Assembly (NCBI GenBank): GCA_944363915.1
Contig: CALVVR010000014.1
Location: 1-37,578 of the forward strand
Length of the DNA stretch: 37,578 bases
Direction: 5' to 3'
DNA from: an uncultured Bacilli bacterium
GTDB lineage: Bacteria > Bacillota_I > Bacilli_A > RF39 > UBA660
Part shown: piece by piece, positions 1,527 to 37,380 of the stretch
How the letters are laid out: the number at the start of each line of letters is the position of its first letter
Numbering within the stretch: position 1 is the stretch's first letter
Made by a program: the position numbers and the translations under genes
The notes under the pieces: generated by a model
What the model was told of the DNA's origin: nothing
Seen by the model: only the letters and a program-made list of their open reading frames with translations
The model's database searches: none

Positions 1527-1560
1527 AAAATTAAAAATATACGTTACTTTTTCAAGTAAC
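1527..1560 (-). terminator. Possible terminator after the recombinase gene
   Basis: A 7-bp stem GTTACTT (1554-1560) / AAGTAAC (1543-1549) with a GAAA loop overlaps the recombinase TGA stop. A U-rich tract follows on the minus strand. It would shield the spoIVA C-terminal part from recombinase transcription. Confidence 0.5.
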
Positions 1561-3135
1561 TAAAACTTCAACTTTTTTAATACGATAATGGATTTCCACA
1601 TCTTTATTTTTAGTAATATATATTCTTTCAATTATTTTATTTAACATTTCTTTTGTTGGATTATTAATGTTTAAGAAATTTTCCACAACATCTAAATATT
1701 CAATGTAAGATATTGAATCCTCTTTAACTTCTTCTAATTCCTTTTTATATTTTCCAAGTTTATTAGTGAGAGTACTTATTTCAGTATTAATGTTATTAAA
1801 AAGTCTTTGATATGTATCCACATCAATTACTCCATTAAACTTATCATCATAAATTGCATCCTGTTTTTTTCTTAAATTATTAATTTCAGTTTTACAACTA
1901 TCTATTTTTTTATTCAATTCTATTTTGGGATCAAGATAATTTTCATTGATAATTTTTTCAAATTCTTTTTTATCATTTAAGTAAAGAGATGACATCTCTC
2001 TTATTTTAGAATAAATCGTATTAGTCAATTTTTCATAATTTATAAAGTGTGAACAGCAAATTCCGTATTTGCTAAATTTTCGATAATTATTACAATTCAT
2101 AACAACTCTATCTCTTTTTCTATCATAACTGATAGTCATTTTAGCACCACAATCTTTACAATAAACTAAATTACTTAATACATATTCAACACATCTTTTA
2201 TCCTCTTTATATTTATTAGATTTGTCTCTTATACTTTGAGCTATCTCATAGGTTTTTAAATCTACTATTGGTTCATGAGTATTTTCAACTATACACCATT
2301 CAGATTTAGGAACTTTTTTTCTTTTTTTAGTCTTGTAATTAATATTTTGCGAAGTATGTTGTATTAAACATCCTGTATAAACTTTATTTTTCAAAATATT
2401 ATTGATAGATGAGCTTTTCCATATTTCAGGATGATTGCATTTATCAATTTTCTTCGCACTATTTTTTAAAGAAATTGGCGTTGGATATTCTTGGCGTGTT
2501 AGTATTTCAGCAATATCACTACTTCCATATCCTGATATATATAAATCAAATATTTTTTTGACAATTGGAGCAGTTTTAGGATCAGGAACTAAATGATGCT
2601 TATTATTAGGGTCTTTAATGTACCCATAAGCTGTTACGCTACCACAAAATTTTCCTTCTTTTTTCATAGCTAATAGATGACTTCTAACTTTTTTAGAAAT
2701 ATCTTTTGCATACATGTCATTCATGCCTAACCTAAAAGGCATCATATCACTACCACTAGTTTCATTAAAAGTATCAATATCATCGTTAACAGCAATATAT
2801 CTTATATTATGTTCAGGAAAATATCGCTCTACATAATTACCAGTATCAATGTAATCACGACCAAGTCTTGATAAATCTTTGGTTATAACACAATTTATTC
2901 TTTTACTTTCAATATCTCTTATTAACCGTTTGAAATCTGGTCGATTAAAATTTCCTCCTGAATACCCATCATCAACATACTCATCAACAAAAGATAAGTT
3001 ATTAGCTTTTAAAAATCCAATTAATAAGCTTCTTTGATTTCCAATACTCTCACTTTCTAAATCATCGCCATCTTCACGAGAAAGTCTTATATATAATCCA
3101 ATTTTATAAGTCATATTGTCAAATTTAATATTCAT
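1552..3135 (-). CDS. Large serine recombinase (ICE integrase/excisionase)
   Basis: TndX/TnpX-type site-specific recombinase, 527 aa, that integrates and excises the element through a Ser-DNA covalent intermediate. The N-terminal resolvase domain (about 10-155) has the catalytic Ser19 in YIRLSRED and the conserved LSRLGRDY. The Recombinase domain spans roughly 165-290. A zinc ribbon follows with Cys326, Cys329, Cys348 and Cys360/361, then a coiled coil (about 395-470). The ATG at 3135 has AAGGAGA six bases upstream and overlaps the end of the preceding 67-aa gene, which indicates translational coupling. Its position next to the left junction, with inverted attP arms, makes it the enzyme that chose spoIVA. 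Family clear; the target is inferred from the insertion. Confidence 0.96.
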   Translation of the reverse strand: MNIKFDNMTYKIGLYIRLSREDGDDLESESIGNQRSLLIGFLKANNLSFVDEYVDDGYSGGNFNRPDFKRLIRDIESKRINCVITKDLSRLGRDYIDTGNYVERYFPEHNIRYIAVNDDIDTFNETSGSDMMPFRLGMNDMYAKDISKKVRSHLLAMKKEGKFCGSVTAYGYIKDPNNKHHLVPDPKTAPIVKKIFDLYISGYGSSDIAEILTRQEYPTPISLKNSAKKIDKCNHPEIWKSSSINNILKNKVYTGCLIQHTSQNINYKTKKRKKVPKSEWCIVENTHEPIVDLKTYEIAQSIRDKSNKYKEDKRCVEYVLSNLVYCKDCGAKMTISYDRKRDRVVMNCNNYRKFSKYGICCSHFINYEKLTNTIYSKIREMSSLYLNDKKEFEKIINENYLDPKIELNKKIDSCKTEINNLRKKQDAIYDDKFNGVIDVDTYQRLFNNINTEISTLTNKLGKYKKELEEVKEDSISYIEYLDVVENFLNINNPTKEMLNKIIERIYITKNKDVEIHYRIKKVEVLVT

Positions 3136-11731: not shown

Positions 11732-13513
11732 TCACTCTAAATCTATTTTATAATTGTCAATTATTTTTTGTTTTCTAAATTCATCCAAATTGAAACATTT
11801 AACTTTAAAATCTTTAATCTCATAAGGAATATTAGTTTTACCTATTTTTATTGGATAATCATAAATAGGAACAATATTTGATTTAATAGGATATTTACGT
11901 GTTTTCATAAATATTGCCTCACCAAAATTAAATCGCATTAATTCATCAGTCATAAGTAATTCTCTTCCCATCAAAGACTTATCATTTGATATATTATAAT
12001 CTAATTGCTCTAATCGACTAGAGGTTGATATTCGTTCTGAAGAAATTGTATATTTTCCCAAACGATTAGATATCTCACGAGCTGTTTCATTATCAGCAGT
12101 TAACAAATAAACCCAATTAGTACAATTTGACTTAATTGTCCCTACTGATTCTTTATAAGTTTCTTTTAATTGATCAAAATCTTGCAATACTAAATAAAAG
12201 CGAATATTACGAGAACGTGAAACAGTAATTTTGTTAGAAATAGATGTTATCGGTGGCATATTAGCAAATTCATCTAAAATAAAATTAACACGAATAGGCA
12301 TCATACCTTTTGAAAGATTTTGAGCAGTATTAACAAGAGCTTGATAGCATTGATCGATAAATAAAGATGCTAATTCATGTCTAGACTCTTTTTCATCAGG
12401 AATAATTAAAAATACTGCTGTTTTCTTTTTACCAATATCATCTAATTCAAAATCAGTTCTACTTGTTAGATTAGCAATCCCTGTATCACTAAACATCTTT
12501 ATTGTAGTGGTTAAAACGGAAAATAAAGTTGCTCTTGTTTCACCTTTAGCAAAACTGCCTGTAGCATAAGCCATTTTTGATAAACTACCCATTGGCTTTT
12601 GTTGAAAATATAAATCAAGAGAATTAAATCTATCTATTGTTTTAGAACCATGTTCGACAAGCAAATTATAAATAGAATATAAATTAACTTCTGACTCATC
12701 AGCACAATCTTCAATCAAACCATAACATAAAGCTGATAAAACTGCTGTTGCTGATTTTTCCCAATACATATCTTTAGAACTTAAATTCTTACAAAGAGAT
12801 TTAGAAAAATTTTCTATGATGTCTCCAGCAAGATCAATATTACCTTCATGGTAATATTTATAAGCTAAATGAAGTGGATTCCAACCATCACTTGCTAAAG
12901 CATTTCTTAAATTTATAACATGAATTTTATATCCTTGTTTTTTTAAAAAACTAGCTGTAGTATTATAAAGTTCCCCTTTAGTATCGTTTATTACCATCGA
13001 CTCATCAGCGTATCCTAAATTAAAAATAAGGGGCATTATCTCACAAATTGTTTTACCACTACCAGTAGAGCCAATAATTAATGTATGATCAAATGAATCA
13101 TCATAATAACATTTACCATCAAGAAAAGTTACAGGAATCCCCCCTGATTTTAGCTTTTCACCTACATTCCAAATTTTAAAATTCTTTTTTATTTCCTTTT
13201 TTGTCATCCATCTTGAACTGCCATATTCAAAACTTCCATCCTCTTTTGGAAGTTCTTTTTTTCTAATAAATTTAGTTTTAAAATCTCGATCATACTTTAT
13301 AATTACTAAAAATATTATGGTGGAAAGAAGAAATGTTCCAAATAATAATTTAAAATCTTTCAAACAAGTAAAAGAATTAATAAAGTTAAAATCCCAAGTG
13401 AGTTTAATATCGTTAGTAATAATCCAAGTTAAATTATAACAAATATTAGCCGATACTATAAAATCTAAAAATCCAATTAAAATATAATTCCAATATTTTT
13501 TTAACTTATTTAT
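11732..13513 (-). CDS. virD4: VirD4/TcpA-type coupling protein (T4CP)
   Basis: Hexameric membrane ATPase that links the relaxase-DNA complex to the conjugation channel. The first conventional start (TTG 13363) gives 543 aa with Walker A IIGSTGSGKT and Walker B VNFILDEFANM, but only one of the two N-terminal membrane helices normal for this family. Extending to an ATA at 13513 adds 50 residues beginning NKLKKYWNYILIGFLDFIV, supplying the first helix, for 593 aa. That ATA overlaps the previous gene's stop as ATAA, 9 nt after GGAGG. No ATG, GTG or TTG lies between, so an AUA start is needed for a complete protein. The gene follows the mobilisation genes, as expected. Confidence 0.93.
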   Translation of the reverse strand: MNKLKKYWNYILIGFLDFIVSANICYNLTWIITNDIKLTWDFNFINSFTCLKDFKLLFGTFLLSTIIFLVIIKYDRDFKTKFIRKKELPKEDGSFEYGSSRWMTKKEIKKNFKIWNVGEKLKSGGIPVTFLDGKCYYDDSFDHTLIIGSTGSGKTICEIMPLIFNLGYADESMVINDTKGELYNTTASFLKKQGYKIHVINLRNALASDGWNPLHLAYKYYHEGNIDLAGDIIENFSKSLCKNLSSKDMYWEKSATAVLSALCYGLIEDCADESEVNLYSIYNLLVEHGSKTIDRFNSLDLYFQQKPMGSLSKMAYATGSFAKGETRATLFSVLTTTIKMFSDTGIANLTSRTDFELDDIGKKKTAVFLIIPDEKESRHELASLFIDQCYQALVNTAQNLSKGMMPIRVNFILDEFANMPPITSISNKITVSRSRNIRFYLVLQDFDQLKETYKESVGTIKSNCTNWVYLLTADNETAREISNRLGKYTISSERISTSSRLEQLDYNISNDKSLMGRELLMTDELMRFNFGEAIFMKTRKYPIKSNIVPIYDYPIKIGKTNIPYEIKDFKVKCFNLDEFRKQKIIDNYKIDLE

Positions 13514-14097
13514 ATATTAATTCCTCCATATTTTTTTAATTCTTTTAAGGTGCAATTATTATCTAAAAGTTCTTGCAAAAACAAACCACCATTATATAAA
13601 GAAATTACCTCACTATAAATGCCAAATTTTAAATAGGTAGAAGATAATGAATTAACATTTGTATCATAATCTACTTTTAATCGGTCATACTCTAATATAT
13701 CATCTTGATATTTGTTTATAAGAGTTTCATTAATTAAATACTTTATATAAGTATTAAGATTATTAATATCTTCTTTTTTGAAAACATAAAGCAAAGGAAA
13801 ATCATTCTTATTATCCATGTATTTTAAAAATAAACAATGATTTTTATCTACAAATACTCCTTGTATTTTCAAATCGTTTTTAATGCTTATTTGATAGTTG
13901 TCTTTTAAAAATTTTTTGAGAGAAAACTTATTCATGTTTAAATTTCTATCAAGAATATCTTTATCTAAATAAATATTATGATTAGCAAAAACATAATCAA
14001 TAATATAGTTAATTGTTTTAATTTTAGCAAACATACTATCATTACCAACTAATATGTCATTTTCAAAATTATCTCTCGTAATATCTACAACATACAT
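13510..14097 (-). CDS. Hypothetical protein between relaxase and coupling protein
   Basis: 195 aa, Asp/Asn/Leu-rich, soluble; no recognised domain. ATG at 14097 overlaps the relaxase stop as TAATG. The codon before it is ATA (14100), exactly 7 nt from GGAGG, so initiation could be at either. Ends GGINI with its stop overlapping the VirD4 start. Its place suggests a transfer-accessory role such as relaxosome docking; unproven. Confidence 0.72.
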   Translation of the reverse strand: MYVVDITRDNFENDILVGNDSMFAKIKTINYIIDYVFANHNIYLDKDILDRNLNMNKFSLKKFLKDNYQISIKNDLKIQGVFVDKNHCLFLKYMDNKNDFPLLYVFKKEDINNLNTYIKYLINETLINKYQDDILEYDRLKVDYDTNVNSLSSTYLKFGIYSEVISLYNGGLFLQELLDNNCTLKELKKYGGINI

Positions 14098-15536
14098 TAT
14101 TTATTGACCTCCAATTCATATTCCATGTTTTCTAAAATTTCTTTTTCTTCTCGTTCTATCTCATAATAAAGATGATTGATAGCTTGATTAATAAACCTTT
14201 TGTAATTTAACTCTTTATAAAAATTTTTTTCTTTTAGTTTATTATATCGATGAGAATCATATCCCAATTTTTTTAAAGCCGTATATAGTTCTTGAATACT
14301 CATATCAGTATTATTAGTCCTAACTAATGGTATCAAAACGTCAGCATCATAATCATACTTGGAATTACTAATCCATCGTTTAAAAACCTTTTTGATTTGA
14401 TTATCGTTTAAATTAGCTAGTACACATATTTTATATAAATCTTTAGCAATACTTTTTTTAGTTTCTTCTTTTGCATAGTCATTACGACTTCTAAAATTAA
14501 ATTCATTAATATGTTTATTTAAAAATTTTTTCTCACGTTCTATAAAATCAATAGATTGATATCTTTTATAATTAGCGAGAATTTCATTACCAATTTTAGA
14601 ATAAAGCCTTTGTTTTTGATTTTCATAATATCTACTGAATTTATTATCGAAAGTCATACCGTATAAAGAATTAAGTTCTTTTTTGTGTTCATCAAGTAAT
14701 CTTAAATATTTAGCATAATCATATTTAACTGAGTCATGCAATAATATAAATTCTATTATATTATCTAAATCTTTACGATAAATATTCATAGATTTAGAAT
14801 TATATTGCAAACGTCCTTTAGTTGGTAATTTATCATAAAGTTCTAAAAGCATTTTATTTAATTGATTACGATATTTATCACTAAATAATCTTTGCTTTTT
14901 TATTTTATTTAGATCATTTAAATCAACATTACCTGTAATGTTAGAAAAAGTACGATCACGGAGTTCATAGAATTTTTTATAATCAACCAAATATTTACCA
15001 ACATTACTTCTAAAGTTTTTATAACAATATTTAGGAATATGTGGATTAGTTTTAGTTACTCTATTTTCAAAAAAACAAAAATGAATATGAGGATGATTAG
15101 TATCACGATGTAATGAACAATACCAACTAACATTGTTTAAATCAAGTCCCATATCTAATATTAATGAAGTAATAATATCGTTAGATAAACTATAATAATC
15201 TGACTTTGTGACTAATCCATGATTTATTGCAAAATCTGGTGGAAAAGAAAGAAAACCTCGCCAAAAAAAGCCACTTGAATTATCAATTAATTTTGCAATA
15301 GCATCTTTTTTTAATATATCACCATTATTTGTCCAAAGATAAGTTTCATAACTTTCATCAAGATATGTTTCTTTATCAGAAAACAAAGCATATTCTTTTA
15401 AAAGATTATATTCATCGATGCTAGAAGAATCGGCTTTTTGTTTTTTTGAAGCATAATCAAGCCATCCTTTAATACCTACTTTTTTGTTTTTACAAGTTTT
15501 GTAATTAATCTTAAAAACAATATTACTATTACTCAT
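14097..15536 (-). CDS. mobL: MOB-L family relaxase (MobL)
   Basis: 479-aa DNA relaxase that nicks oriT and pilots the strand into the recipient. The MobL histidine cluster HRDTNHPHIHF (His143, His148, His150, His152) lies in the N-terminal 200 residues together with SSGFFWRGFLSFP and an early Tyr-rich region that could hold the nucleophile. The C-terminal half is helical and charged. MOB-L relaxases such as that of Bacillus plasmid pLS20 have this pattern. ATG at 15536 overlaps the RHH gene stop by 8 nt. It is followed by a small gene and the coupling protein and preceded by two RHH proteins and the oriT-like hairpin, a complete mobilisation module. Confidence 0.93.
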   Translation of the reverse strand: MSNSNIVFKINYKTCKNKKVGIKGWLDYASKKQKADSSSIDEYNLLKEYALFSDKETYLDESYETYLWTNNGDILKKDAIAKLIDNSSGFFWRGFLSFPPDFAINHGLVTKSDYYSLSNDIITSLILDMGLDLNNVSWYCSLHRDTNHPHIHFCFFENRVTKTNPHIPKYCYKNFRSNVGKYLVDYKKFYELRDRTFSNITGNVDLNDLNKIKKQRLFSDKYRNQLNKMLLELYDKLPTKGRLQYNSKSMNIYRKDLDNIIEFILLHDSVKYDYAKYLRLLDEHKKELNSLYGMTFDNKFSRYYENQKQRLYSKIGNEILANYKRYQSIDFIEREKKFLNKHINEFNFRSRNDYAKEETKKSIAKDLYKICVLANLNDNQIKKVFKRWISNSKYDYDADVLIPLVRTNNTDMSIQELYTALKKLGYDSHRYNKLKEKNFYKELNYKRFINQAINHLYYEIEREEKEILENMEYELEVNK

Positions 15537-16957: not shown

Positions 16958-17516
16958 TTTTTCTCCCTTCTAAACCATAAATAACAAAGCTTGGATCAAT
17001 CAAGTGTTCTTTCTCAAAAGAAAGAATACCTTTTGTAATCATGAAATGCAAATGACATCCTGTACTCAATCCAGTATTACCAACATAGCCAATAATATCA
17101 CCTTTATTAATAACATCATCTTTGGCAACAATAATTTCACTTAAATGTCCATAAATTGTATACAATAAATTATCATGTTCTAAATAAATATAATTACCTA
17201 AACCACTATCATTAGTCCCTATCTCATAAACAATTCCATCACTACTAGCAATCACTGGCTCATTACATTTTGCACCTAAATCTATTCCATTATGAAAATT
17301 AATCTCATCATTATTAAATGGATCAAGACGATATCCAAAATCAGAAGTAATAGAAAATTTAGTTTCTTCTTTAAAAGGAACTATAAAATTATTCGCTACA
17401 TAAATTGATGATTCATCAACTGATGAGTTCATAATTAACAGCAAAAACAGCAACAATATTAATACAAATGAAATTATAGATATAATAAATATTTTAAATA
17501 CTTTTAAGTCACTTAT
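16944..17516 (-). CDS. Membrane-anchored M23 peptidoglycan endopeptidase of the transfer system
   Basis: LytM/M23 fold: zinc ligands in FHNGIDLG (H and D) and GCHLHF (HxH), with the conserved GLGNYIYLEH and YGHLSEI strands. It opens the cell wall for the conjugation channel. From the conventional TTG 17456 the protein would lack a proper anchor start. From ATA 17516 it gains SDLKVFKIFIISIISFVLIL, a full signal-anchor helix, for 190 aa. That ATA is six bases after AGGTGG and shares its A with the stop of the VirB4 gene (TAATA). It sits directly after VirB4, the usual position in Gram-positive ICEs. Confidence 0.93.
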   Translation of the reverse strand: MSDLKVFKIFIISIISFVLILLLFLLLIMNSSVDESSIYVANNFIVPFKEETKFSITSDFGYRLDPFNNDEINFHNGIDLGAKCNEPVIASSDGIVYEIGTNDSGLGNYIYLEHDNLLYTIYGHLSEIIVAKDDVINKGDIIGYVGNTGLSTGCHLHFMITKGILSFEKEHLIDPSFVIYGLEGRKNNKE

Positions 17517-19903
17517 TAGCGACCACCTGCATTACCAAATAAAATTTTTTCTTCTTCTCGTAAATGAACTTGAATTGGTATTCTCATATCCTGTCCGATA
17601 ACAAAAAGAGCTTGTCCTTTACCTGCAGTAGTTAAAAATTGCGTTTCTGACTCACTTAAATTCATCATTTTTTTTACTGACTCAATTTCTTTTTGTCCTT
17701 GTGCCATAACAATAAGATAAGTGCTATTATCAATAATAACCTGTCCATATCTTTCCAATCCATCAGCCGTATAATCAATAAAATTTTGACTAATTGTCCA
17801 TACAGCTGAATTGTATTTTCGACATCTTTTAGTACATTTTTTAAGAAAATCAGCACCATCAGGATTAGATGGATCAATAAGTAAATGTGACTCATCACAT
17901 ACAAGAATTACTTGTTCATCACGATTACGACTAATCTCATTCCAACACCAAGATAAAATATTAAAAAATTGCGTACGTAAAATTGTTGTATCACTATCAA
18001 CTAAACTGTGGATATCCAAAACAATAAAATCAGTATTTTTATCTACATTAATTGTTGAAACACCATTAAACAATTTAGCATCAGCTCCAAATGTAGCCCG
18101 TTTTAACATTGAACTTATTTTTTCTAACGATTCAATCACATTTTTAGCGTCATGTTCTTCTTTTGCCGTTTGCAATTTATCATAAATTTTTTTATAAAGA
18201 TCTTCCATGATAGGATAATCTTTACTTGCTAGTTTAGACAAATCTGCATCAAAATCAATGCCCTTATCTTTATACACTTCGATCAATACTTCTTCAATTT
18301 TTGTAAGTTCATAAGCTGATAAATCTTGTAAATAATATTTAATAAATGTTCTGAATGTTTGAAAATGTCGTGATAAATCATTAGTTTTATTTTCCGGTGT
18401 TTCTTCATCATATTCATCTGCTCCATGACGAACCTCTAAAGGATTAATAATTCCTGCAATACCAGTACCTGAATCTATCCAAGAACCTCCAACCGACTCG
18501 CATATATCACGATATTCACGTTCAGGATCGATTATAATAACTTTAGATCCTCGACTCCACGCACCACGAACTAGTTTTTTTATCAATGTAGATTTACCAC
18601 TACCACTCTTACCAACAATGACTGCATTAGAATTATTCCTTTTATTAGTTCTTTTCCACATATCAAAAAAAATTAAACTACCAAGTGCATCATTACCTAA
18701 TATAATTGCATCACCATCATCTTGTAAATTTTGAAAAATAAATGGAAAAGAAGATGCTACTGTCATCATAGGGACAGGTAAACCAAATTGTTTTTCAAGT
18801 TCATTATACATTGTAGGCAAACACATTTTAAATGCTCTTTCTTGTTCAAACATTAAGTCTGCTCCACCAAGTCCATATGCCGATAATGTAGACTTTAATT
18901 CTTTCTTTGTTTTTTCTAGCTGTTCCTTTGTATCAGCATAGCAAATAAAGTTAACAGTTAAAAGAGCAAATTTTTCATGTTCACGATCAATTCTATTAAC
19001 AAGTTCTACATAATCTTGCATTTGATTATTTAAAATTATTTGATCATTATAATCATTAATATTAATCATTTTTGATTTGACTTCTGAAATACTTTTTTTT
19101 AATGTTGTGGAAATCTCTTGCGTATTCATTGGACTAATACTAACGACCATTCTTGTATGATCAACATTTGCAACAGCTCCTAACCATCCAACCGAAACCA
19201 TAGATGGATAACTTCGAAGTGTAATAACACTTATATAAGCATCTCCAAATATTAGGTCTTTTTCACTAATTTTAAGCCCTGTAGGAGCAATTTTCTCTTT
19301 AAAAGACCTATTTATACCTGTAGCATCTTTTTTAAAAGAATCTAGCGAAGTTACAGGATTTAAGATTATATATAAAAGTTCTCGCCACTCCTCACTCAAT
19401 ACCAATTCAGCTGAAAGACCGATTGAAATAAACTCTTGAATTAAATCATTTATCTTTTGTTTTAACAATTTTTCATTATTAGAACTTTCTTCAACAATAA
19501 TATAAAACTCTCGATTAACAACCGATTTTTGATTATTTAAAAATCTAATATAATCGTAATCTTCTTCCAATAATTGTTGTTTAAATTTGTTTTTTTCTAC
19601 TTTTATTTTAGAACCTAGTATATTTAAATTATCATCTAAATTTATAGGTTTATCAATGCTAAAAATTTTAATCGGATAGTCAATGGAGTTCAAAATTTTT
19701 TTTAGTTGACTAACTTTTATTTTTTGCTCTTCATCAAATAATAAAGAAAGATTTATTGAACCTATTTTAATACCACCAACAATTCGATTATTATCTAGAA
19801 AAACACAATTATTCCACACCTCTTGAAACGGAATAAAATCTAATATTGTCTTAGGAACTTTTTTACGATTAATTTTTTGCTTTATATTTATTCTTTTAAC
19901 TAT
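17516..19903 (-). CDS. virB4: VirB4/ConE-type conjugation ATPase
   Basis: 795 aa (767 from the conventional GTG 19819). Walker A IVGKSGSGKST at about 431-439, Walker B VILVCDESHLL, and motifs WTISQNF and SESETQFL typical of VirB4. It powers substrate transfer and pilus/channel assembly at the inner face of the membrane. The GTG lies inside the conserved N-terminal pattern: the frame continues upstream through VPKTILDFIPFQEVW, the usual start region of this family. The only suitable start is ATA 19903, 5 nt after GGGAGG and overlapping the previous stop as ATAG. Followed at once by the M23 peptidase. Confidence 0.96.
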   Translation of the reverse strand: MVKRINIKQKINRKKVPKTILDFIPFQEVWNNCVFLDNNRIVGGIKIGSINLSLLFDEEQKIKVSQLKKILNSIDYPIKIFSIDKPINLDDNLNILGSKIKVEKNKFKQQLLEEDYDYIRFLNNQKSVVNREFYIIVEESSNNEKLLKQKINDLIQEFISIGLSAELVLSEEWRELLYIILNPVTSLDSFKKDATGINRSFKEKIAPTGLKISEKDLIFGDAYISVITLRSYPSMVSVGWLGAVANVDHTRMVVSISPMNTQEISTTLKKSISEVKSKMININDYNDQIILNNQMQDYVELVNRIDREHEKFALLTVNFICYADTKEQLEKTKKELKSTLSAYGLGGADLMFEQERAFKMCLPTMYNELEKQFGLPVPMMTVASSFPFIFQNLQDDGDAIILGNDALGSLIFFDMWKRTNKRNNSNAVIVGKSGSGKSTLIKKLVRGAWSRGSKVIIIDPEREYRDICESVGGSWIDSGTGIAGIINPLEVRHGADEYDEETPENKTNDLSRHFQTFRTFIKYYLQDLSAYELTKIEEVLIEVYKDKGIDFDADLSKLASKDYPIMEDLYKKIYDKLQTAKEEHDAKNVIESLEKISSMLKRATFGADAKLFNGVSTINVDKNTDFIVLDIHSLVDSDTTILRTQFFNILSWCWNEISRNRDEQVILVCDESHLLIDPSNPDGADFLKKCTKRCRKYNSAVWTISQNFIDYTADGLERYGQVIIDNSTYLIVMAQGQKEIESVKKMMNLSESETQFLTTAGKGQALFVIGQDMRIPIQVHLREEEKILFGNAGGR

Positions 19904-24776: not shown

Positions 24777-25391
24777 CTATTTTATATTATAAGAATTTAA
24801 AAGTTGTGAAATAATCACGATTTGTTTATCAGTAAAAGCCTTACAAGTTATCAATGTTAGAGTACTTTTATTAATATCTCTTTTTATGTTCACCTTACCT
24901 GTTTTTTTGGGCTCATATTTATCAACTATTTTATATACATATTTTTTATTTTTATAGTAAACATAAATTTCATCGCCAATATCTAACTTGTAAACATTTT
25001 TAAAAAAAGCTTGTTTGCTAGTTCCTGAATGTGAGGCTAAAATAAAATTACCTTTTTCTATATCTGGCATATCTGATTCTTTTAAAATAGTCACATTTTC
25101 GTTGACGTTATTATGTTCATTATCTTTCGGTAACAATCCTTTTTTTAAATTAATTTTAGGTATCTCTAAAACAGCGATATAATTGTTTTCTTGAACATTT
25201 GAATTGACAACCTCTATATTATCAATATTTATTTCATTTTCCGTAAATTCAAAGAATTCTTGAATTTTCTTTTGTTCTATTTTATCCTCTTTTGCAAAAC
25301 TATAGTATTTATTAAAAATTAAAAATGTACCAATAAATATAAGCAAAAAACTAATAATAAACCATAACTTTCTACTTTTTTCTACTCGCAT
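24777..25391 (-). CDS. Sortase (divergent, ICE-encoded)
   Basis: 204 aa from ATG 25391 with an N-terminal membrane anchor (about residues 8-28), then a sortase domain: catalytic His in ILASHSGTS, Cys in STLTLITC. The usual catalytic Arg a few residues after the Cys is not there: the strand reads DKQIVII where family members have an Arg. Sortases cleave a sorting signal and join the protein to the wall or to a pilus. It overlaps the adhesin gene end by 20 nt, so the two form a substrate-enzyme pair. Confidence 0.9.
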   Translation of the reverse strand: MRVEKSRKLWFIISFLLIFIGTFLIFNKYYSFAKEDKIEQKKIQEFFEFTENEINIDNIEVVNSNVQENNYIAVLEIPKINLKKGLLPKDNEHNNVNENVTILKESDMPDIEKGNFILASHSGTSKQAFFKNVYKLDIGDEIYVYYKNKKYVYKIVDKYEPKKTGKVNIKRDINKSTLTLITCKAFTDKQIVIISQLLNSYNIK

Positions 25392-27834
25392 AGATAATAT
25401 AACCAACTCCAATTATAATAAACGATACTGAAATTATCTCTAATATATTATTTGAATTTTTTAATGTATTAGGAACATCCACTTGCTCATTAAACATATT
25501 AGCTTTAACAATTTCGCCATCCTCTTTTATTTCAAACCATATTTTTTCATCATTTAAAATATATCCTTCTGGTGCTTCTGATTCTAAAATATAAAATTTA
25601 CCAATCGGCAAATTTTGAATTATAATCTTTCCATTTTCATTAGTATAACCCTCAAAAATCTTAACATTATTTTCAGTATAAATTTCAATTTTAGTATTAG
25701 GTAAAGCTTTATCATTTATAAAATCAGTCTTAGTGAATTCTAACTCACCTTTAGGTAATTCATTATTTAAATAAAAAGTTTCATAAATAACTTCGGTATA
25801 TTGATCTTTATAGCTTAATTCAAATTCATAAACAGTTGGATTAATAAGATTATTATGATTAGATTTAATTTCCCTTAATTGATATTTTCCTAAAGGAATT
25901 AGTGAATCTCTTAATGATGCATAACCATTTTCATCGGTAATTAAAGTTGCTACTAGCTCACCTTTAGAATAATATTTTTTGCCTCCAAAAATAATATCTT
26001 CATTAGCTATTAGTTCAAATACTACTCCATCTAAATTTATTTTTTCATAATAATAAGTTCCGTCTTCAAAAACAATTTTCTCACCAGTTTTATATATTTC
26101 AACATTACCTTTTACTGGTTGATTTTCAAACTGCATTTCAAAAATTATTCCATAAGTAGAATCAGTAATTAGTTCAGCATTTTCGCCAATAGTAAACTCT
26201 TTAGATTGACTATTCCATAAATATCCATCTATATCTTGATCTACCTCTTCAAGTCGATATGTGCTAGAATTTAAAGGCAATGGTGTGAGTAAAATTCCAT
26301 CTTCATTAGTCTCAAAAACACATTGAACTTTATTAGTCGTTTGACAAACATATTCATTATTATTCACATCAAAGATTTTAAATTTTATTCCACCTCGTGC
26401 AATAACATTACCAGTTTCTTTATCAACTTTTACTACTTTAAGCCTTGCTTTCATTTCAGCATTTGAAAGCAATTTATAAATTGAATTTTCAACATTTTCA
26501 TCAATAACAACTTCAAAATCTTTTACAAATTCATGATCCTGTGTCCCTGTTTTTTGCTTTATTACATATATGCCATATTGCAATTTGGTACTTGCAAAAC
26601 CTTGGTCATCAGTAGTAATGCTAGTAACTTTTTGTCCATTTGACTTTAAATAAATATCAAATGTTACATTAGGTTCTCCAATCAAAAATCCAGTTTGGTC
26701 ACTAGCAAACACTTTAAATATTTTTAGCTCTTTCTCAATAACTTTCTCTACCACTTCGATTTGAGGATATAAATCATCTTTAGTTATTTCAAAATAATAT
26801 TTGGTATTATCTAACTCATATCCAATTGAAGATTGTTCTTCCAATAAATAATAATCACCTATTTTTAACCAAACATCACTTACAACATATTCGTTCTCGA
26901 TAGTCTTTAATTCACCGACACGAGTCCCATCAATTTTATAAATTCCATAAATAGCACCACTTAATGAAGCATCACCTTGAGGAATACCAATTCCAGTATC
27001 TGCGTCTATTTTTTTTAATGATACTTTCCCTAATAGTGTATTTACTTTAAAACTAAAATACACAGGATCTAAAGCTCCTGATGTTAGTAGTTTTTGACTA
27101 TCGCCACTCGTGTATACTAGTGCTACTTCATCTAAATATTGTTTCTTTACAAAACGCAAATCTATTTCGCCTAGTTTTTCTACTTTGAATGATAATTTAT
27201 TACCACTAATTTTTACATTTGCAATATTATTACCATAGACTTCATAATTGGATAAAACATTATTTTCATCAGTCAAAGTTACTGTTTCACCAACAACTGC
27301 ATCAATAGTGATTCCATTAAATGATGGTTTTTTATCGTGGTTTTTTATTAAATTTTCTATTTCTTTAATCTCATCACTTAAGTCAATATAATCACCTTTG
27401 CCATTTAATTTGGTATGATATTCATACTTAAAATCACTTACTTCTTCCCAAATTAGGGTTTGTGTGGCAGCTCTATATTCCATAGTTCCATGGTTTGGAT
27501 ATTCATATCCATAATAAGCATATAAAAGTATTTTTCTTATTTCTTCATCAGATAAACCTGATGCCCCAATTAAATCATCACTACCAACGTATTCATATTC
27601 AGTTATATTAGTTACTGGTTCAATACAATATGCGACCTTACCACTTACATCAAATGTTGAATATTGATGAGAATGATAATAGTCCGTTTTTGTTCTTTCA
27701 TAGTACATATCATCAACATATTTTCTGGTCAAAATTCCGTTTTTTGACAAAGCATATATGCCTTTTATTCCAAAAATAGACATAAATAGAATTGCTATTC
27801 CAATTAATAGCAATTTGTAATTCTTTTTCTTCAA
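25372..27834 (-). CDS. Thioester-domain surface adhesin with SpaA/Cna-B repeats
   Basis: 820 aa with TTG start 7 nt after AAAGGAGG. Signal peptide about residues 1-29. A TQXA thioester domain follows: Cys70 (VAYCIEP) and Gln125 (ATQTLIWEE) are the pair that forms the internal thioester. Then about five SpaA/Cna-B-like domains (starting near 274, 367, 455, 560 and 660; typical starts KVSLKKIDADTG, LKVVKVDKETGN, GELEFTKTD), in which Lys-Asn isopeptides are expected. The C-terminus has a sorting-like VPNTLK instead of LPxTG, a membrane helix (SFIIIGVGYIIY) and RKK. In ICEs such proteins help the donor hold the recipient. A terminator lies just before its RBS. Confidence 0.9.
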   Translation of the reverse strand: MKKKNYKLLLIGIAILFMSIFGIKGIYALSKNGILTRKYVDDMYYERTKTDYYHSHQYSTFDVSGKVAYCIEPVTNITEYEYVGSDDLIGASGLSDEEIRKILLYAYYGYEYPNHGTMEYRAATQTLIWEEVSDFKYEYHTKLNGKGDYIDLSDEIKEIENLIKNHDKKPSFNGITIDAVVGETVTLTDENNVLSNYEVYGNNIANVKISGNKLSFKVEKLGEIDLRFVKKQYLDEVALVYTSGDSQKLLTSGALDPVYFSFKVNTLLGKVSLKKIDADTGIGIPQGDASLSGAIYGIYKIDGTRVGELKTIENEYVVSDVWLKIGDYYLLEEQSSIGYELDNTKYYFEITKDDLYPQIEVVEKVIEKELKIFKVFASDQTGFLIGEPNVTFDIYLKSNGQKVTSITTDDQGFASTKLQYGIYVIKQKTGTQDHEFVKDFEVVIDENVENSIYKLLSNAEMKARLKVVKVDKETGNVIARGGIKFKIFDVNNNEYVCQTTNKVQCVFETNEDGILLTPLPLNSSTYRLEEVDQDIDGYLWNSQSKEFTIGENAELITDSTYGIIFEMQFENQPVKGNVEIYKTGEKIVFEDGTYYYEKINLDGVVFELIANEDIIFGGKKYYSKGELVATLITDENGYASLRDSLIPLGKYQLREIKSNHNNLINPTVYEFELSYKDQYTEVIYETFYLNNELPKGELEFTKTDFINDKALPNTKIEIYTENNVKIFEGYTNENGKIIIQNLPIGKFYILESEAPEGYILNDEKIWFEIKEDGEIVKANMFNEQVDVPNTLKNSNNILEIISVSFIIIGVGYIIYASRKK

Positions 27835-33605: not shown

Positions 33606-33700
33606 ATAAATCTCACTTTCTTTACAAAATTTTATAAAAATGACTAACAAGTTAATATTGCAATTCCTTATAAAATAAGGCTTTTACACACTTTTTATAG

Positions 33701-33730
33701 TGGTATCACTATTTGGGGTTCTTCCCAAGG
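33701..33730. other. Right ICE attachment junction
   Basis: Element arm TGGTATCACT-ATTTGG-GGTTCTTCC (33701-33725), then CA (33726-33727) and host AGGAGTTCTTAC. The arm is the inverted counterpart of 1502-1525. Crossover lies in the Trp codon (TGG at 33725-33727 on the minus strand). Confidence 0.85.
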
Positions 33731-34087
33731 AGTTCTTACTTTTCTTGGACCATTTTCATCTTCATACCCTTTAGCTTCAGGTATGACATAACCCACGCAG
33801 TCAATTAACTTCACACTAGCTGTAAAGTCTTCTATTTTTATTTTAGCAGCATTGCTTGGAACAAATTTAGGCTCAGTTGTCATAATAGTTTTACCTTGAG
33901 CCGATTGAGGAATTTCATCTAAACATCTTTTTCTTTCATACTCATCTTCAATATTAGGTACAACTAAATTTTCAATTACTTTTTTAATAAAAGTTGATTT
34001 ACCTGTTCTAACAGCTCCAACTACTCCTAAATAAATTTCTCCTCCTGTCCTACTAGTAATACTTTTTATAATATCTATTTTTTCCAT
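33725..34087 (-). pseudogene. spoIVA: spoIVA, N-terminal part (interrupted by the ICE)
   Basis: Codons 1-121 of SpoIVA, including the Walker A GVVGAVRTGKST, the DEIPQSAQGKTIMTTEPKF segment, LIDCVGY and the conserved KGYEDENGPRKVRTPW. ATG at 34087 follows AGGGA; an upstream ATG at 34105 has no RBS. After the Trp codon the frame runs into ICE sequence (EEPQIVIPL) and stops at 33695, so the integrated form would make a 131-aa truncated ATPase domain with no coat-anchoring part. The rest lies at 386-1501. Confidence 0.93.
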
Positions 34088-34116
34088 ATATTCCCTACTT
34101 TCCATATCGTTAGTAA

Positions 34117-34795: not shown

Positions 34796-34820
34796 CAATT
34801 TATTTCACTATAATCTTTTT
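34781..34820. terminator. Bidirectional terminator between the + gene and hisS
   Basis: 11-bp stem AAAGATTATAG / CTATAATCTTT with T-runs on both sides; it covers both stop codons. Confidence 0.85.
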
Positions 34821-36098
34821 GATTTGTTCTAAATTATTAATATCTATTTTTTCTTGCTCACCAGTAATCATATTTTTTAAATTGAAATAATTATTATTGA
34901 CTTCATCTTCACCCAAAACAATAACATAAGGGATGTTTTCTCGATTAGCAAATTCAAAACTTTTCTTTAGTTTCCGATCATTCATTTCAATATCGACTTT
35001 ATAACCTAATTTTCTTAGGTTGTTAGCTAAAATTAAACTTTCTTTTTTAGTATTCATCGGTATAACATAAATATCAATTAAAGATTTATTTTTAAATTGT
35101 TCTCTTTTTCTTAATATTTCATAGATTGCGGACAATCCGAAACTGATTCCAACTGCTGGATACTCATTACCATCATTGATAAAGTCAGTAATCATATTGT
35201 CATAACGACCACCACCACCAATGCTACAAGTTAATTCTTTAGAATATGCTTCAAAAACATTACCAGTATAATATTCTTGACCGCGAGCTAAAGTAGCAAC
35301 AAATTTAGTTTTGTCTTGAATACCTAATTTAACAATATATGATTCTAATTCTTTAATTTCTTCTAAGCCTTTTTTTATTAATTCATTATTAGTATTTTCA
35401 TATAACTTATTTAATTCATTAATATTTAATTTAAATATATTTAATAAATTTAATGCTGTTTGTTGTAATACACCAATTTTATTGAACTCTTCAATTATTT
35501 CAGCTTCACTTATTTTTTCTAATTTATCGATAATTGTAATAACACTAGAAACTAATTCATCATTTATATTTTGTTCTTTGATAATTCCTGACATTAAATT
35601 ACGACTGTTATATTTAATTAAAACATCAATATCTAATTTGTCACATCCATCAAGAAATAATGAAATTATTTCAGCTTCAATCAATTGACCAGAAATACCG
35701 ACAACATCGACATCACATTGAATAAATTCACGATCTCTTCCTGTTTTTACTGGACCATCTCTAAAAACTCGACCGATTTCATATCGTTTGAATGGTAATC
35801 TTAAATCTTTAGTTATAGCGATACATTTAGCAAAAGGTACTGTTAAATCATATCTTAATCCTAAATTTCTATTTCCTTGATCAGTTAATTTGTATATTTC
35901 ATTTAATATATCATTATTTTCGTCGTATTTACCAGCTAATAAGTCGTAATAACATAAAATTGGGGTTTCTAAAGGTTGATAACCATATTTTTCAAAAACT
36001 TCTTTTAAAGTATCATTGATATAATTTCTAATTTTTTGTTGTTCTGGCAAATAATCATAAGTTCCTTTAACATTTTTTAATTCGATTTTTCTTTTCAT
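34800..36098 (-). CDS. hisS: Histidyl-tRNA synthetase
   Basis: 432-aa class II synthetase that charges tRNA-His. Motif 1 region GTYDYLPEQQ, motif 2 KRYEIGRVFRDGPVK with the downstream REFIQCDVD, histidine loop ARGQEYYTGNVFEAY and motif 3 GGGRYDNMI are present, followed by an anticodon-binding domain (IDIYVIPMNTKKES...). The start is ATG 36098 after AAGGAGG; an upstream in-frame start at 36167 would read through the terminator hairpin and has no RBS. Expression is controlled by the leader attenuator at 36110-36262. Confidence 0.97.
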   Translation of the reverse strand: MKRKIELKNVKGTYDYLPEQQKIRNYINDTLKEVFEKYGYQPLETPILCYYDLLAGKYDENNDILNEIYKLTDQGNRNLGLRYDLTVPFAKCIAITKDLRLPFKRYEIGRVFRDGPVKTGRDREFIQCDVDVVGISGQLIEAEIISLFLDGCDKLDIDVLIKYNSRNLMSGIIKEQNINDELVSSVITIIDKLEKISEAEIIEEFNKIGVLQQTALNLLNIFKLNINELNKLYENTNNELIKKGLEEIKELESYIVKLGIQDKTKFVATLARGQEYYTGNVFEAYSKELTCSIGGGGRYDNMITDFINDGNEYPAVGISFGLSAIYEILRKREQFKNKSLIDIYVIPMNTKKESLILANNLRKLGYKVDIEMNDRKLKKSFEFANRENIPYVIVLGEDEVNNNYFNLKNMITGEQEKIDINNLEQIKKIIVK

Positions 36099-36109
36099 AA
36101 ATTCCTCCT

Positions 36110-36138
36110 TAAAAAAACTATACAGTTGCCTGTATAGT
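36110..36138 (-). terminator. Attenuator terminator of hisS
   Basis: Perfect 9-bp stem ACTATACAG / CTGTATAGT with GCAA loop (36117-36138) and a U7 run (36111-36117), directly upstream of the hisS RBS. Confidence 0.9.
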
Positions 36139-36262
36139 CTTATATTTACAGGCAACAAGCAACACAAATAGCACTTGTGCCTACATAATTTTATGTATTA
36201 ACAAGTGCGACTATTATGATGATGTTGTCTATTTAATTTTTTCATAATAATCTCTCCTCAAT
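36117..36262 (-). promoter_or_regulatory. Histidine ribosome-mediated attenuator of hisS
   Basis: In the leader RNA (minus strand) four regions can pair in exclusive ways. Region 1 CACTTGT (36201-36207, last leader codons) pairs with region 2 ACAAGTG (36172-36178), supported by TACATAA/TTATGTA. Region 2 AGGCACAAG (36174-36182) can instead pair with region 3 CTTGTTGCCT (36150-36159, one bulge). Region 3 GTTGCCTGTA (36147-36156) can pair with TACAGGCAAC (36125-36134), which destroys the terminator. If ribosomes stall at the His codons, 1:2 forms, 3 pairs with 4, and hisS is read. If they reach the stop they mask region 1, 2:3 forms, and the terminator folds. No T-box consensus is present. Confidence 0.85.
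36198..36245 (-). CDS. hisS leader peptide (15 aa, His-His-His)
   Basis: Reads MKKLNRQHHHNSRTC, with CAT CAT CAT at 36216-36224. RBS GAGGAG eight bases before ATG 36245. Too short for ordinary gene finders. Its last codons form region 1 of the attenuator. Confidence 0.85.
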   Translation of the reverse strand: MKKLNRQHHHNSRTC

Positions 36263-36268
36263 GCCTTG

Positions 36269-36297
36269 ATTATATCATTAAAACTTAAGTGTGTCAA
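36269..36297 (-). promoter_or_regulatory. Consensus sigma-A promoter of hisS
   Basis: Perfect TTGACA (36292-36297), 17-nt spacer, perfect TATAAT (36269-36274). Transcription should start near 36262, about 17 nt before the leader-peptide ATG. Confidence 0.92.
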
Positions 36298-36300
36298 ATA

Positions 36301-37365
36301 CTATTTATATATTCTAGGTATTCTTTTACCAACATTACAAATAACTTCATATTCGATAGTATTTAAATGTTTAGCTATTTTTTTAATATGATTTATATCT
36401 TTAATTACTTCTACTTTATCGCCGATTTCAACATTATCATCAATTTTTACAAATAACATATCCATACAAATATTACCAATAATCTCATATTCTTTATTAT
36501 TAATATAGACCGTTCTTCCTTTATTTGCCCTTATAATTCCATCACCATAGCCAATTGGAACGATAGCTATCTTTTCTTTTACCTTAGCTTGATAAGTTCC
36601 ATCATACCCAACTGTATCTCCAGGTTTTAAATTTTTAATTAAAATAACTTCGCTAATTAATTTAAATGTTGACTTAAGTGGTAAAGACTTAGAAGTAAAA
36701 CCATACATAATAATACCTAAGCGACAACCATTAACAAAGGGTAACTTAGGATATAAAACAGTCGCTTCGCTAGCAGTAATATGAACAATAGGGATATTTT
36801 TTAAATCGATGTTTTCGGTTAAATATTTAAATTTTTCAAACTGCTTTTCAGTAGTTTTTTTATCATTAGCCTTATAAATATGGGTATATATTCCTTCGAG
36901 AAAAATATTTTTATTATTCTTTATTTTATTATATACTTCTTCTAAATCCTTTTCGTTATCGATTCCAAGTCTTTTCATTCCAGTATCAACTTTTAAATGA
37001 ACTTTTAAATTAGAAATATTATTTTTTTCTACTTCATTATAATAATCTAAACTAGGAATAGTTATTGCAATATTGTTTTTTACACAAATATCTAAATATT
37101 TAGGGGAAATTATTCCTAAACATAAGATAGGAATATTTTTAATACTTTTTCTTATTAATAAAGCTTCTTCTAAACTAGATACAGCTAAATAATTACAACC
37201 ACCTTCTATTATTGCTTTAACTACTTTATTACTGAAATGACCATAACAATCAGCTTTTACAACTCCAAAATAATATTTATATCCAGGGTAATTATTAATT
37301 ATTGTTGTTACATTTTCTTTGATATTTTTTAAATTAACTTCGACATATGTATTTCTATAAATCAT
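36301..37365 (-). CDS. alr: Alanine racemase
   Basis: 354 aa, PLP-dependent enzyme making D-alanine for peptidoglycan. PLP lysine in GVVKADCYGH (Lys37); catalytic Tyr region in GYDGTYQAK; conserved HLKVDTGMKRLGI, RLGIIMYG and GNICMDMLFV. The start is ATG 37365, six bases after AAAGGTG; a GTG at 37374 lies inside that RBS. It follows a terminator of the upstream tRNA genes, so it depends on readthrough or on a promoter that I cannot see. The stop is right before the hisS promoter. Confidence 0.96.
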   Translation of the reverse strand: MIYRNTYVEVNLKNIKENVTTIINNYPGYKYYFGVVKADCYGHFSNKVVKAIIEGGCNYLAVSSLEEALLIRKSIKNIPILCLGIISPKYLDICVKNNIAITIPSLDYYNEVEKNNISNLKVHLKVDTGMKRLGIDNEKDLEEVYNKIKNNKNIFLEGIYTHIYKANDKKTTEKQFEKFKYLTENIDLKNIPIVHITASEATVLYPKLPFVNGCRLGIIMYGFTSKSLPLKSTFKLISEVILIKNLKPGDTVGYDGTYQAKVKEKIAIVPIGYGDGIIRANKGRTVYINNKEYEIIGNICMDMLFVKIDDNVEIGDKVEVIKDINHIKKIAKHLNTIEYEVICNVGKRIPRIYK

Positions 37366-37380
37366 TTTAATCACCTTTTA

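Follow-up and report, generated by a model that had tools for sequence, protein, structure and literature searches.

The histidine-tRNA ligase gene (hisS) of an uncultured gut bacterium of the Bacilli is very probably controlled by a ribosome-mediated leader-peptide transcription attenuator that would sense charged tRNA-His, a reading based in silico on the parts of the element, their conservation, the covariation of its helices, and the geometry of the translating ribosome. Moreover, the element looks like one member of a homologous family of switches in the Bacillota, in which the sensing codons for His, Arg, Asn, or Pro (and, with weaker support, Asp or Cys) are exchanged according to the gene downstream. 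By “the window” we mean the whole stretch of 37,578 nucleotides that was analyzed.

The putative attenuator upstream of hisS

The regulatory region lies between alr and hisS (Table 1) on the minus strand, which the original prediction had left unspecified. Its parts were otherwise found as first described. The consensus promoter matches at 12 of 12 positions and is conserved in the relatives L001 and L003; the 15-codon leader peptide carries its three consecutive CAT codons; and the intrinsic terminator is present as a 4:5 hairpin followed by a T-run, and covaries. A short ATG open reading frame (ORF) encoding HHH arose in only 1 of 4,000 dinucleotide shuffles of the 202-nt intergenic region, and no further one occurs elsewhere in the window. 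The region has a minimum free energy of -49.1, compared with -30.6 +/- 3.5 in shuffles (z, -5.25). The downstream protein matches PF13393 (E 2.5e-43) and TIGR00442 (346 bits, above the cut-off), scores 500 bits against NF009085 (under the cut-off of 540), and is the single HisS in the 1.14-Mb genome of the window in a search at E<=0.001.

TABLE 1 Features of the hisS leader region and of the conjugative element in the window
Feature	Positions	Strand	Remarks
Regulatory region	36297-36099	-	Between alr (36301-37374) and hisS; promoter, leader ORF, competing helices
Sigma-70 type promoter	36269-36297	-	TTGACA 36297-36292, 17-nt spacer, TATAAT 36274-36269
Leader Shine-Dalgarno	36254-36259	-	GAGGAG; from sequence
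Leader ORF, 15 codons	36198-36245	-	MKKLNRQHHHNSRTC-stop; ATG at 36245, TAA ending at 36198; HHH kept in relatives
Sensing codons	36216-36224	-	CAT CAT CAT (His); from sequence and conservation
Segment 1	36201-36208	-	GCACUUGU; overlaps last leader-ORF codons; from 1:2 pairing and geometry
Segment 2	36171-36181	-	GGCACAAGUGC; partner of segment 1 or segment 3
Segment 3	36147-36161	-	UGCUUGUUGCCUGUA; partner of segment 2 (one bulged U) or segment 4
Segment 4	36125-36138	-	ACUAUACAGGCAAC; antiterminator 3' half and terminator 5' arm
Segment 5 and T-run	36111-36125	-	Intrinsic terminator 3' arm
Intrinsic terminator	End at 36111	-	GACUAUACAG-GCAA-CUGUAUAGUU and T-run; between leader ORF and hisS
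hisS Shine-Dalgarno	36104-36109	-	AGGAGG; from sequence
hisS	34800-36098	-	Histidine--tRNA ligase, 432 aa; ATG at 36098; nearest NCBIfam PRK12420 type
spoIVA, N-terminal part	33695-34105		Flank of conjugative element
spoIVA, middle and C-terminal parts	386-1288 and just upstream		Flank of conjugative element (386-1445)
Serine recombinase	1552-3135		Conjugative element
Coupling protein	11732-13363		Conjugative element
MobL relaxase	14097-15536		Conjugative element
TraG/VirB4-like protein	17516-19819		Conjugative element
SpaA/TED surface protein	25372-27834		Conjugative element
TrbL-like protein; DNA methylase			Conjugative element

The pairings proposed initially are indeed mutually exclusive, but there are four competing helices rather than three: 1:2 (GCACUUGU with ACAAGUGC), 2:3 (AGGC.ACAAGUG with UGCUUGUuGCCU, including the single bulged U already pointed out), 3:4 (the antiterminator, GUUGCCUGUA with UACAGGCAAC), and 4:5 (the terminator). 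Helix 1:2 is compatible with 3:4, and 2:3 with 4:5. Segment 4 is common to 3:4 and 4:5, in agreement with the earlier remark that the terminator contains part of the antiterminator.

In the proposed mechanism, a shortage of His-tRNA would stall the ribosome at the three CAT codons and leave segment 1, located 7 nt beyond them, accessible for pairing with segment 2; this would make segment 3 available to segment 4, and hisS would be transcribed. With plentiful His-tRNA, the ribosome would reach the stop codon and mask segment 1, so that 2:3 and 4:5 could form and transcription would be terminated. The histidine response and the kinetic order of folding are parts of the model that we infer. The geometry agrees with this scheme in 41 of 41 leaders, irrespective of whether the leader ORF ends before, within, or after segment 1: a ribosome with its A site on the first His codon leaves segment 1 free, and one with its A site on the stop codon masks at least 4 nt of it. 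Given that segment 1 is free at the stall and covered at the stop, stalling would mean readthrough and completion would mean termination. The proposed switch corresponds to the his scheme of Escherichia coli minus its first segment, and for this reason an untranslated leader is predicted to read through, unlike in E. coli attenuators, a prediction that we count against the attenuator model.

Conservation, covariation, and loss among hisS loci

A HisS search yielded 80 loci, and 79 HisS proteins (78 loci plus the window) were placed on a tree. A leader-type HHH ORF precedes hisS in 46 of these 79 and is absent from 33, and the loci that have it cluster on the tree (13 changes versus 25.4 when shuffled). 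Some genomes scored as lacking a leader carry it at the head of an operon, with hisS 1.5 to 2.5 kb downstream. HHH ORFs before hisS were found in metagenome-assembled genomes (MAGs) of Bacilli and in Clostridia, Brevibacillus, Lutispora, and Natronincola, and the leaders fall into three sequence groups: gut Bacilli (HHHN[NS]..., alignment A1), Clostridia MAGs (HHHRRSL, alignment A2), and Clostridium/Brevibacillus/Lutispora/Natronincola (alignment A3). A further alignment, A7, has 19 members and includes leaders with Asn, Pro, and Arg codons. The Evansella locus L074, in which HHH is present and the core sequence absent, was excluded from the segment tests.

Covariation of the paired regions, which had been suggested as a check, was found for both states in A3 and A7 and for 1:2 with 4:5 in A1, but was not significant for 2:3 in A1 alone (136 of 500 shuffles). 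In A3, 96.1% of cells are paired for 1:2+3:4 (0 of 500 shuffles as high) and 93.5% for 2:3+4:5, where 10 pairs show changes in both partners (0/500 for both the percentage paired and the score). In A1, the figure for 1:2+4:5 is 98.1% (0/500), and that for helix 1:2 by itself 98.4%. In A7, covariation is seen at 14 pairs in the 2:3+4:5 state and at 8 in the 1:2+3:4 state (0/500 each). When segments were swapped between groups, the cognate partner beat those of other groups in 667/718 cases for 1:2, 539/718 for 2:3, 692/718 for 3:4, and 716/718 for 4:5; compensatory changes across groups occur in all four helices. The stall and completion logic put forward at the outset thus gains support from many related hisS loci, where the His codons, the pairings, and the ribosome geometry are conserved and the pairings covary.

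Conservation among close relatives gave a divided picture. L001, L003, and L012 retain the promoter, Shine-Dalgarno sequence, ORF, HHH, and four helices, but the leader is lost in L004 to L011 and L013 and decayed in L002. At L014 (positions 1391-1515, on a contig with a low coverage of 4x), whose hisS is 70% identical to that of the window, the hairpins persist while HHH is gone and the peptide reads VSKIYQ-stop, a case of the sensor having been lost in nature. Between L010 and L012 the HisS proteins hardly differ, but a leader is present at L012 only. By these sequence comparisons, the leader has been lost repeatedly in the lineage of the window.

Folding adds to this picture. Before the 3' arm of the terminator is made, the mean probability of helix 3:4 in the three groups of the family is 0.81 to 0.95 in the stalled state, with 1:2 held, and 0.15 to 0.65 with the ribosome at the stop. 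For the window copy, equilibrium folding at the same point gives 0.91 with or without the stall, a consequence of the low stability of its bulged 2:3 helix (-14.2, weaker than 3:4 at -15.8), and in the full-length fold the terminator probability shifts merely from 0.76 to 1.00. When whole leaders are folded at equilibrium, the terminator prevails in most of them regardless of where the ribosome stands, and a kinetic view is therefore needed; such a view fits the family, but not clearly the window copy alone. The window copy is, as modeled by folding, a comparatively weak switch, and its range may be modest. Together with the decay and loss in close relatives, this suggests a lineage under relaxed or shifting control.

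It is conceivable that the element was formerly functional and is decaying in this lineage, so that the window copy would have little or no regulatory range. The decayed, lost, and HHH-less sister loci and the weak 2:3 helix point in this direction; however, the window has kept its promoter, Shine-Dalgarno sequence, ORF, HHH, and four helices intact, as have L001, L003, and L012, and we regard such decay as rather unlikely. Much less probable still is that a translated small ORF and a terminator merely insulate hisS from alr, with HHH being incidental. While the weak folding of the window copy and the lack of a leader in several close relatives would be in line with mere insulation, it would explain neither the rarity of HHH ORFs in the shuffles, nor the fixed distance between HHH and segment 1 in 41 leaders, nor the compensatory changes in four helices across groups. 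Finally, a T-box riboswitch binding uncharged tRNA-His directly can be dismissed from the sequence: although T-boxes are frequent in the genome of the window (10 matches to RF00230), the model has no match at the hisS locus, which holds a conserved His-codon ORF instead. A leader-peptide attenuator remains the preferred reading.

Exchange of the sensing codons on a common scaffold

To describe the family we used three covariance models: R1, built from A1; R2, built from A3; and R3, made without the sensing codons. R1 matches leaders of Clostridium, Brevibacillus, and Lutispora (E 9e-6 to 7e-4), and R2 matches gut Bacilli members. Beyond hisS, matches to R1 or R2 lie before hisZ-hisG (the hisZ-hisG leaders of Clostridia match R2), hisG alone, hisD, and pairs of GNAT and M20 peptidase genes. 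R2 further matches leaders with other codons: an Asn leader (MLNFQFIKLNNGYNI-stop) upstream of aspS, a Pro leader (MTYTCTLKFNNCPSPS-stop) upstream of proS, and the Arg leader L141, one of four RRR leaders found upstream of M20 peptidases (L138, L141, L241, and L243). Per-genome E-values with these His-only models are ~6e-7 for the Asn leader, 7e-6 for the Pro leader, and ~5e-5 for the Arg leader, and all three kinds share the core CAAGUGCUAUUUGUGCUUGUACCU with the His leaders. The recovery of homologous switches by R1 and R2 before hisZ-hisG, hisG, aspS, proS, and M20 peptidases appears to be new.

Two additional leaders were matched by R3, an Asp leader (MNRYCYKRTDDDR-stop) upstream of an aspartate--tRNA(Asn) ligase gene and a Cys leader (MKKYIITNCCCCTY-stop) upstream of cysS, whose product matches TIGR00435 at 525 bits (the query having one surplus residue near its start). 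Their E-values (1.5e-4 and 6e-4) fall within the range of R3's false matches (1e-5 to 1e-3), and the case for them therefore rests on the matching codon run and the four pairings. Most helices of the codon-swapped leaders reach a shuffle p of <=0.05, with the exceptions of 1:2 in L192 and 3:4 in L141. The R3 matches L183, L185, L188, L190, L191, L193 to L199, L223, and L240 proved to be generic terminators or tRNA and were dropped.

Taken together, a single homologous scaffold probably extends across Bacilli, Clostridia, and small-genome gut bacteria, keeping its five segments while His, Arg, Asn, Asp, Cys, or Pro codons are exchanged, with synthetases, his genes, and peptidases for amino acid scavenging under its control. 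That one scaffold serves other genes and amino acids goes beyond what the original prediction had in view. Alternatively, the codon-swapped leaders could be convergent attenuators that have only the general plan in common. The HHHRRSL group follows this plan, and R1 found no match in G648, the only genome of this kind that was searched; for this group we claim a common plan and not homology to the scaffold. The false matches of R3 likewise leave room for convergence. Yet convergence would not readily account for the His-only models finding the Asn, Pro, and Arg leaders, or for the core common to them, and we consider it fairly improbable as an explanation of the family.

The scaffold is unevenly distributed. 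R1 matches 19 of 193 genomes in the family of the window, R3 matches 22 of 39 genomes in the order of Brevibacillus (nearly all very strongly), and R2 matches 15 of 291 genomes of a Clostridia sample (E <= 0.001); phylum- and class-wide searches around the genome of the window recovered few members outside its family.

Several downstream genes deserve mention in their own right. At L124, L126, L129, and L140, a protein of 466 to 492 aa directly follows the His leader and can head the hisS operon; it has no Pfam match, and its motif SICSGSVMS suggests a serine-peptidase-like fold. In gut Bacilli, the Arg leaders precede M20 (ArgE/DapE-like) peptidases, in some cases with other genes close behind, which suggests that these peptidases serve arginine supply. 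One scaffold member (L189; MNYINNFNLKIQIFFNNHFR-stop), with Phe, Asn, and His codons, lies before a sodium-dependent transporter gene, and two others with Trp and His codons (leaders NTWRHIG and NAWHHMG, at L237 and L239) lie before M20 peptidases.

Relation to known systems and other features of the window

T-boxes are considered the usual control of synthetase genes in the Bacillota and leader-peptide attenuation an exception, and the original prediction accordingly called the arrangement unusual. Other synthetases of this genome do use T-boxes (those characterized among the 10 matches lie before gatA, aspS, argS, pheS, valS, ileS, and tyrS), which makes a leader peptide on hisS a real departure there; both kinds of control appear from the sequence to coexist in the genome. 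Both systems serve synthetase genes of the Bacillota, and each adapts one scaffold to many amino acids, but a T-box reads the uncharged tRNA directly, whereas the switch described here would read a stalled ribosome. If confirmed, the family would thus constitute a second general amino-acid-sensing RNA system in the Bacillota, a ribosome-read counterpart of the T-box working beside it in the same genome. A codon-swappable scaffold predicts that exchanging the sensing codons alone would re-aim the switch. Its covariance model also offers an annotation tool for regulons not yet in Rfam, and could help to assign functions to peptidases and transporters.

The suggestion that such an attenuator might be undescribed was only partly right, since His leader peptides had been predicted in bacilli on hisS*, a hisS paralogue, and on hisZ (Naville and Gautheret 2010, PMC2965389); the window element adds one more case to this predicted kind, and what appears to go beyond earlier work is the wider codon-swapped scaffold. 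The leaders of that study resemble ours in that a HisS paralogue of the Bacillota is preceded by a His-codon ORF and a terminator, but they concern bacilli only, and the available text of that paper presents no structure model; the leaders reported here also occur in Clostridia, Brevibacillus, and others, covary, and extend to other amino acids. Leaders of hisZ in Clostridium difficile and the Bacillus cereus group are cited in the available text of Korolev et al. (PMC4833913). Attenuators of his operons with three to five consecutive His codons and alternative attenuator, terminator, and antiterminator structures were described in Firmicutes, namely in the B. cereus group, Peptostreptococcaceae/Lutispora, and Erysipelotrichales (Ashniev 2022, PMC9413887); they concern his biosynthesis operons only, and hisS does not figure in the main text as available. 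Also similar in plan are Cys codons in an upstream ORF (uORF) before cysS, followed by a terminator, in the uORFC-8-2 motif of Rhodobacterales, which belong to the Alphaproteobacteria; the same source lists an aroF uORF in Acholeplasma (PMC8632094). No published description of a single Bacillota scaffold with exchanged codons was found in the literature covered, which was incomplete.

The enterobacterial his attenuator (RF00514) likewise selects the antiterminator by stalling at His codons. In contrast, the window element lacks segment A, so that its RNA should read through when untranslated; it also serves a synthetase gene and is without an Rfam match: RF00514 gave none at its gathering threshold, and none on the leader even with E-values up to 5 admitted. 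A hit of SpF39_sRNA (RF02434) at the locus (29.6 bits against a gathering threshold of 60; E 0.034) was taken as chance, and Rfam 15 has no matching family for any leader examined.

Elsewhere in the window, a conjugative element of ~32 kb (positions 1300-33700) splits spoIVA. Skin-type elements are excised from sporulation genes, a parallel that the split spoIVA brings to mind. The genomes G112, G010, G131, G160, and G168 have two HisS types, one near that of the window and one ~30% identical, which suggests replacement or coexistence of synthetases.
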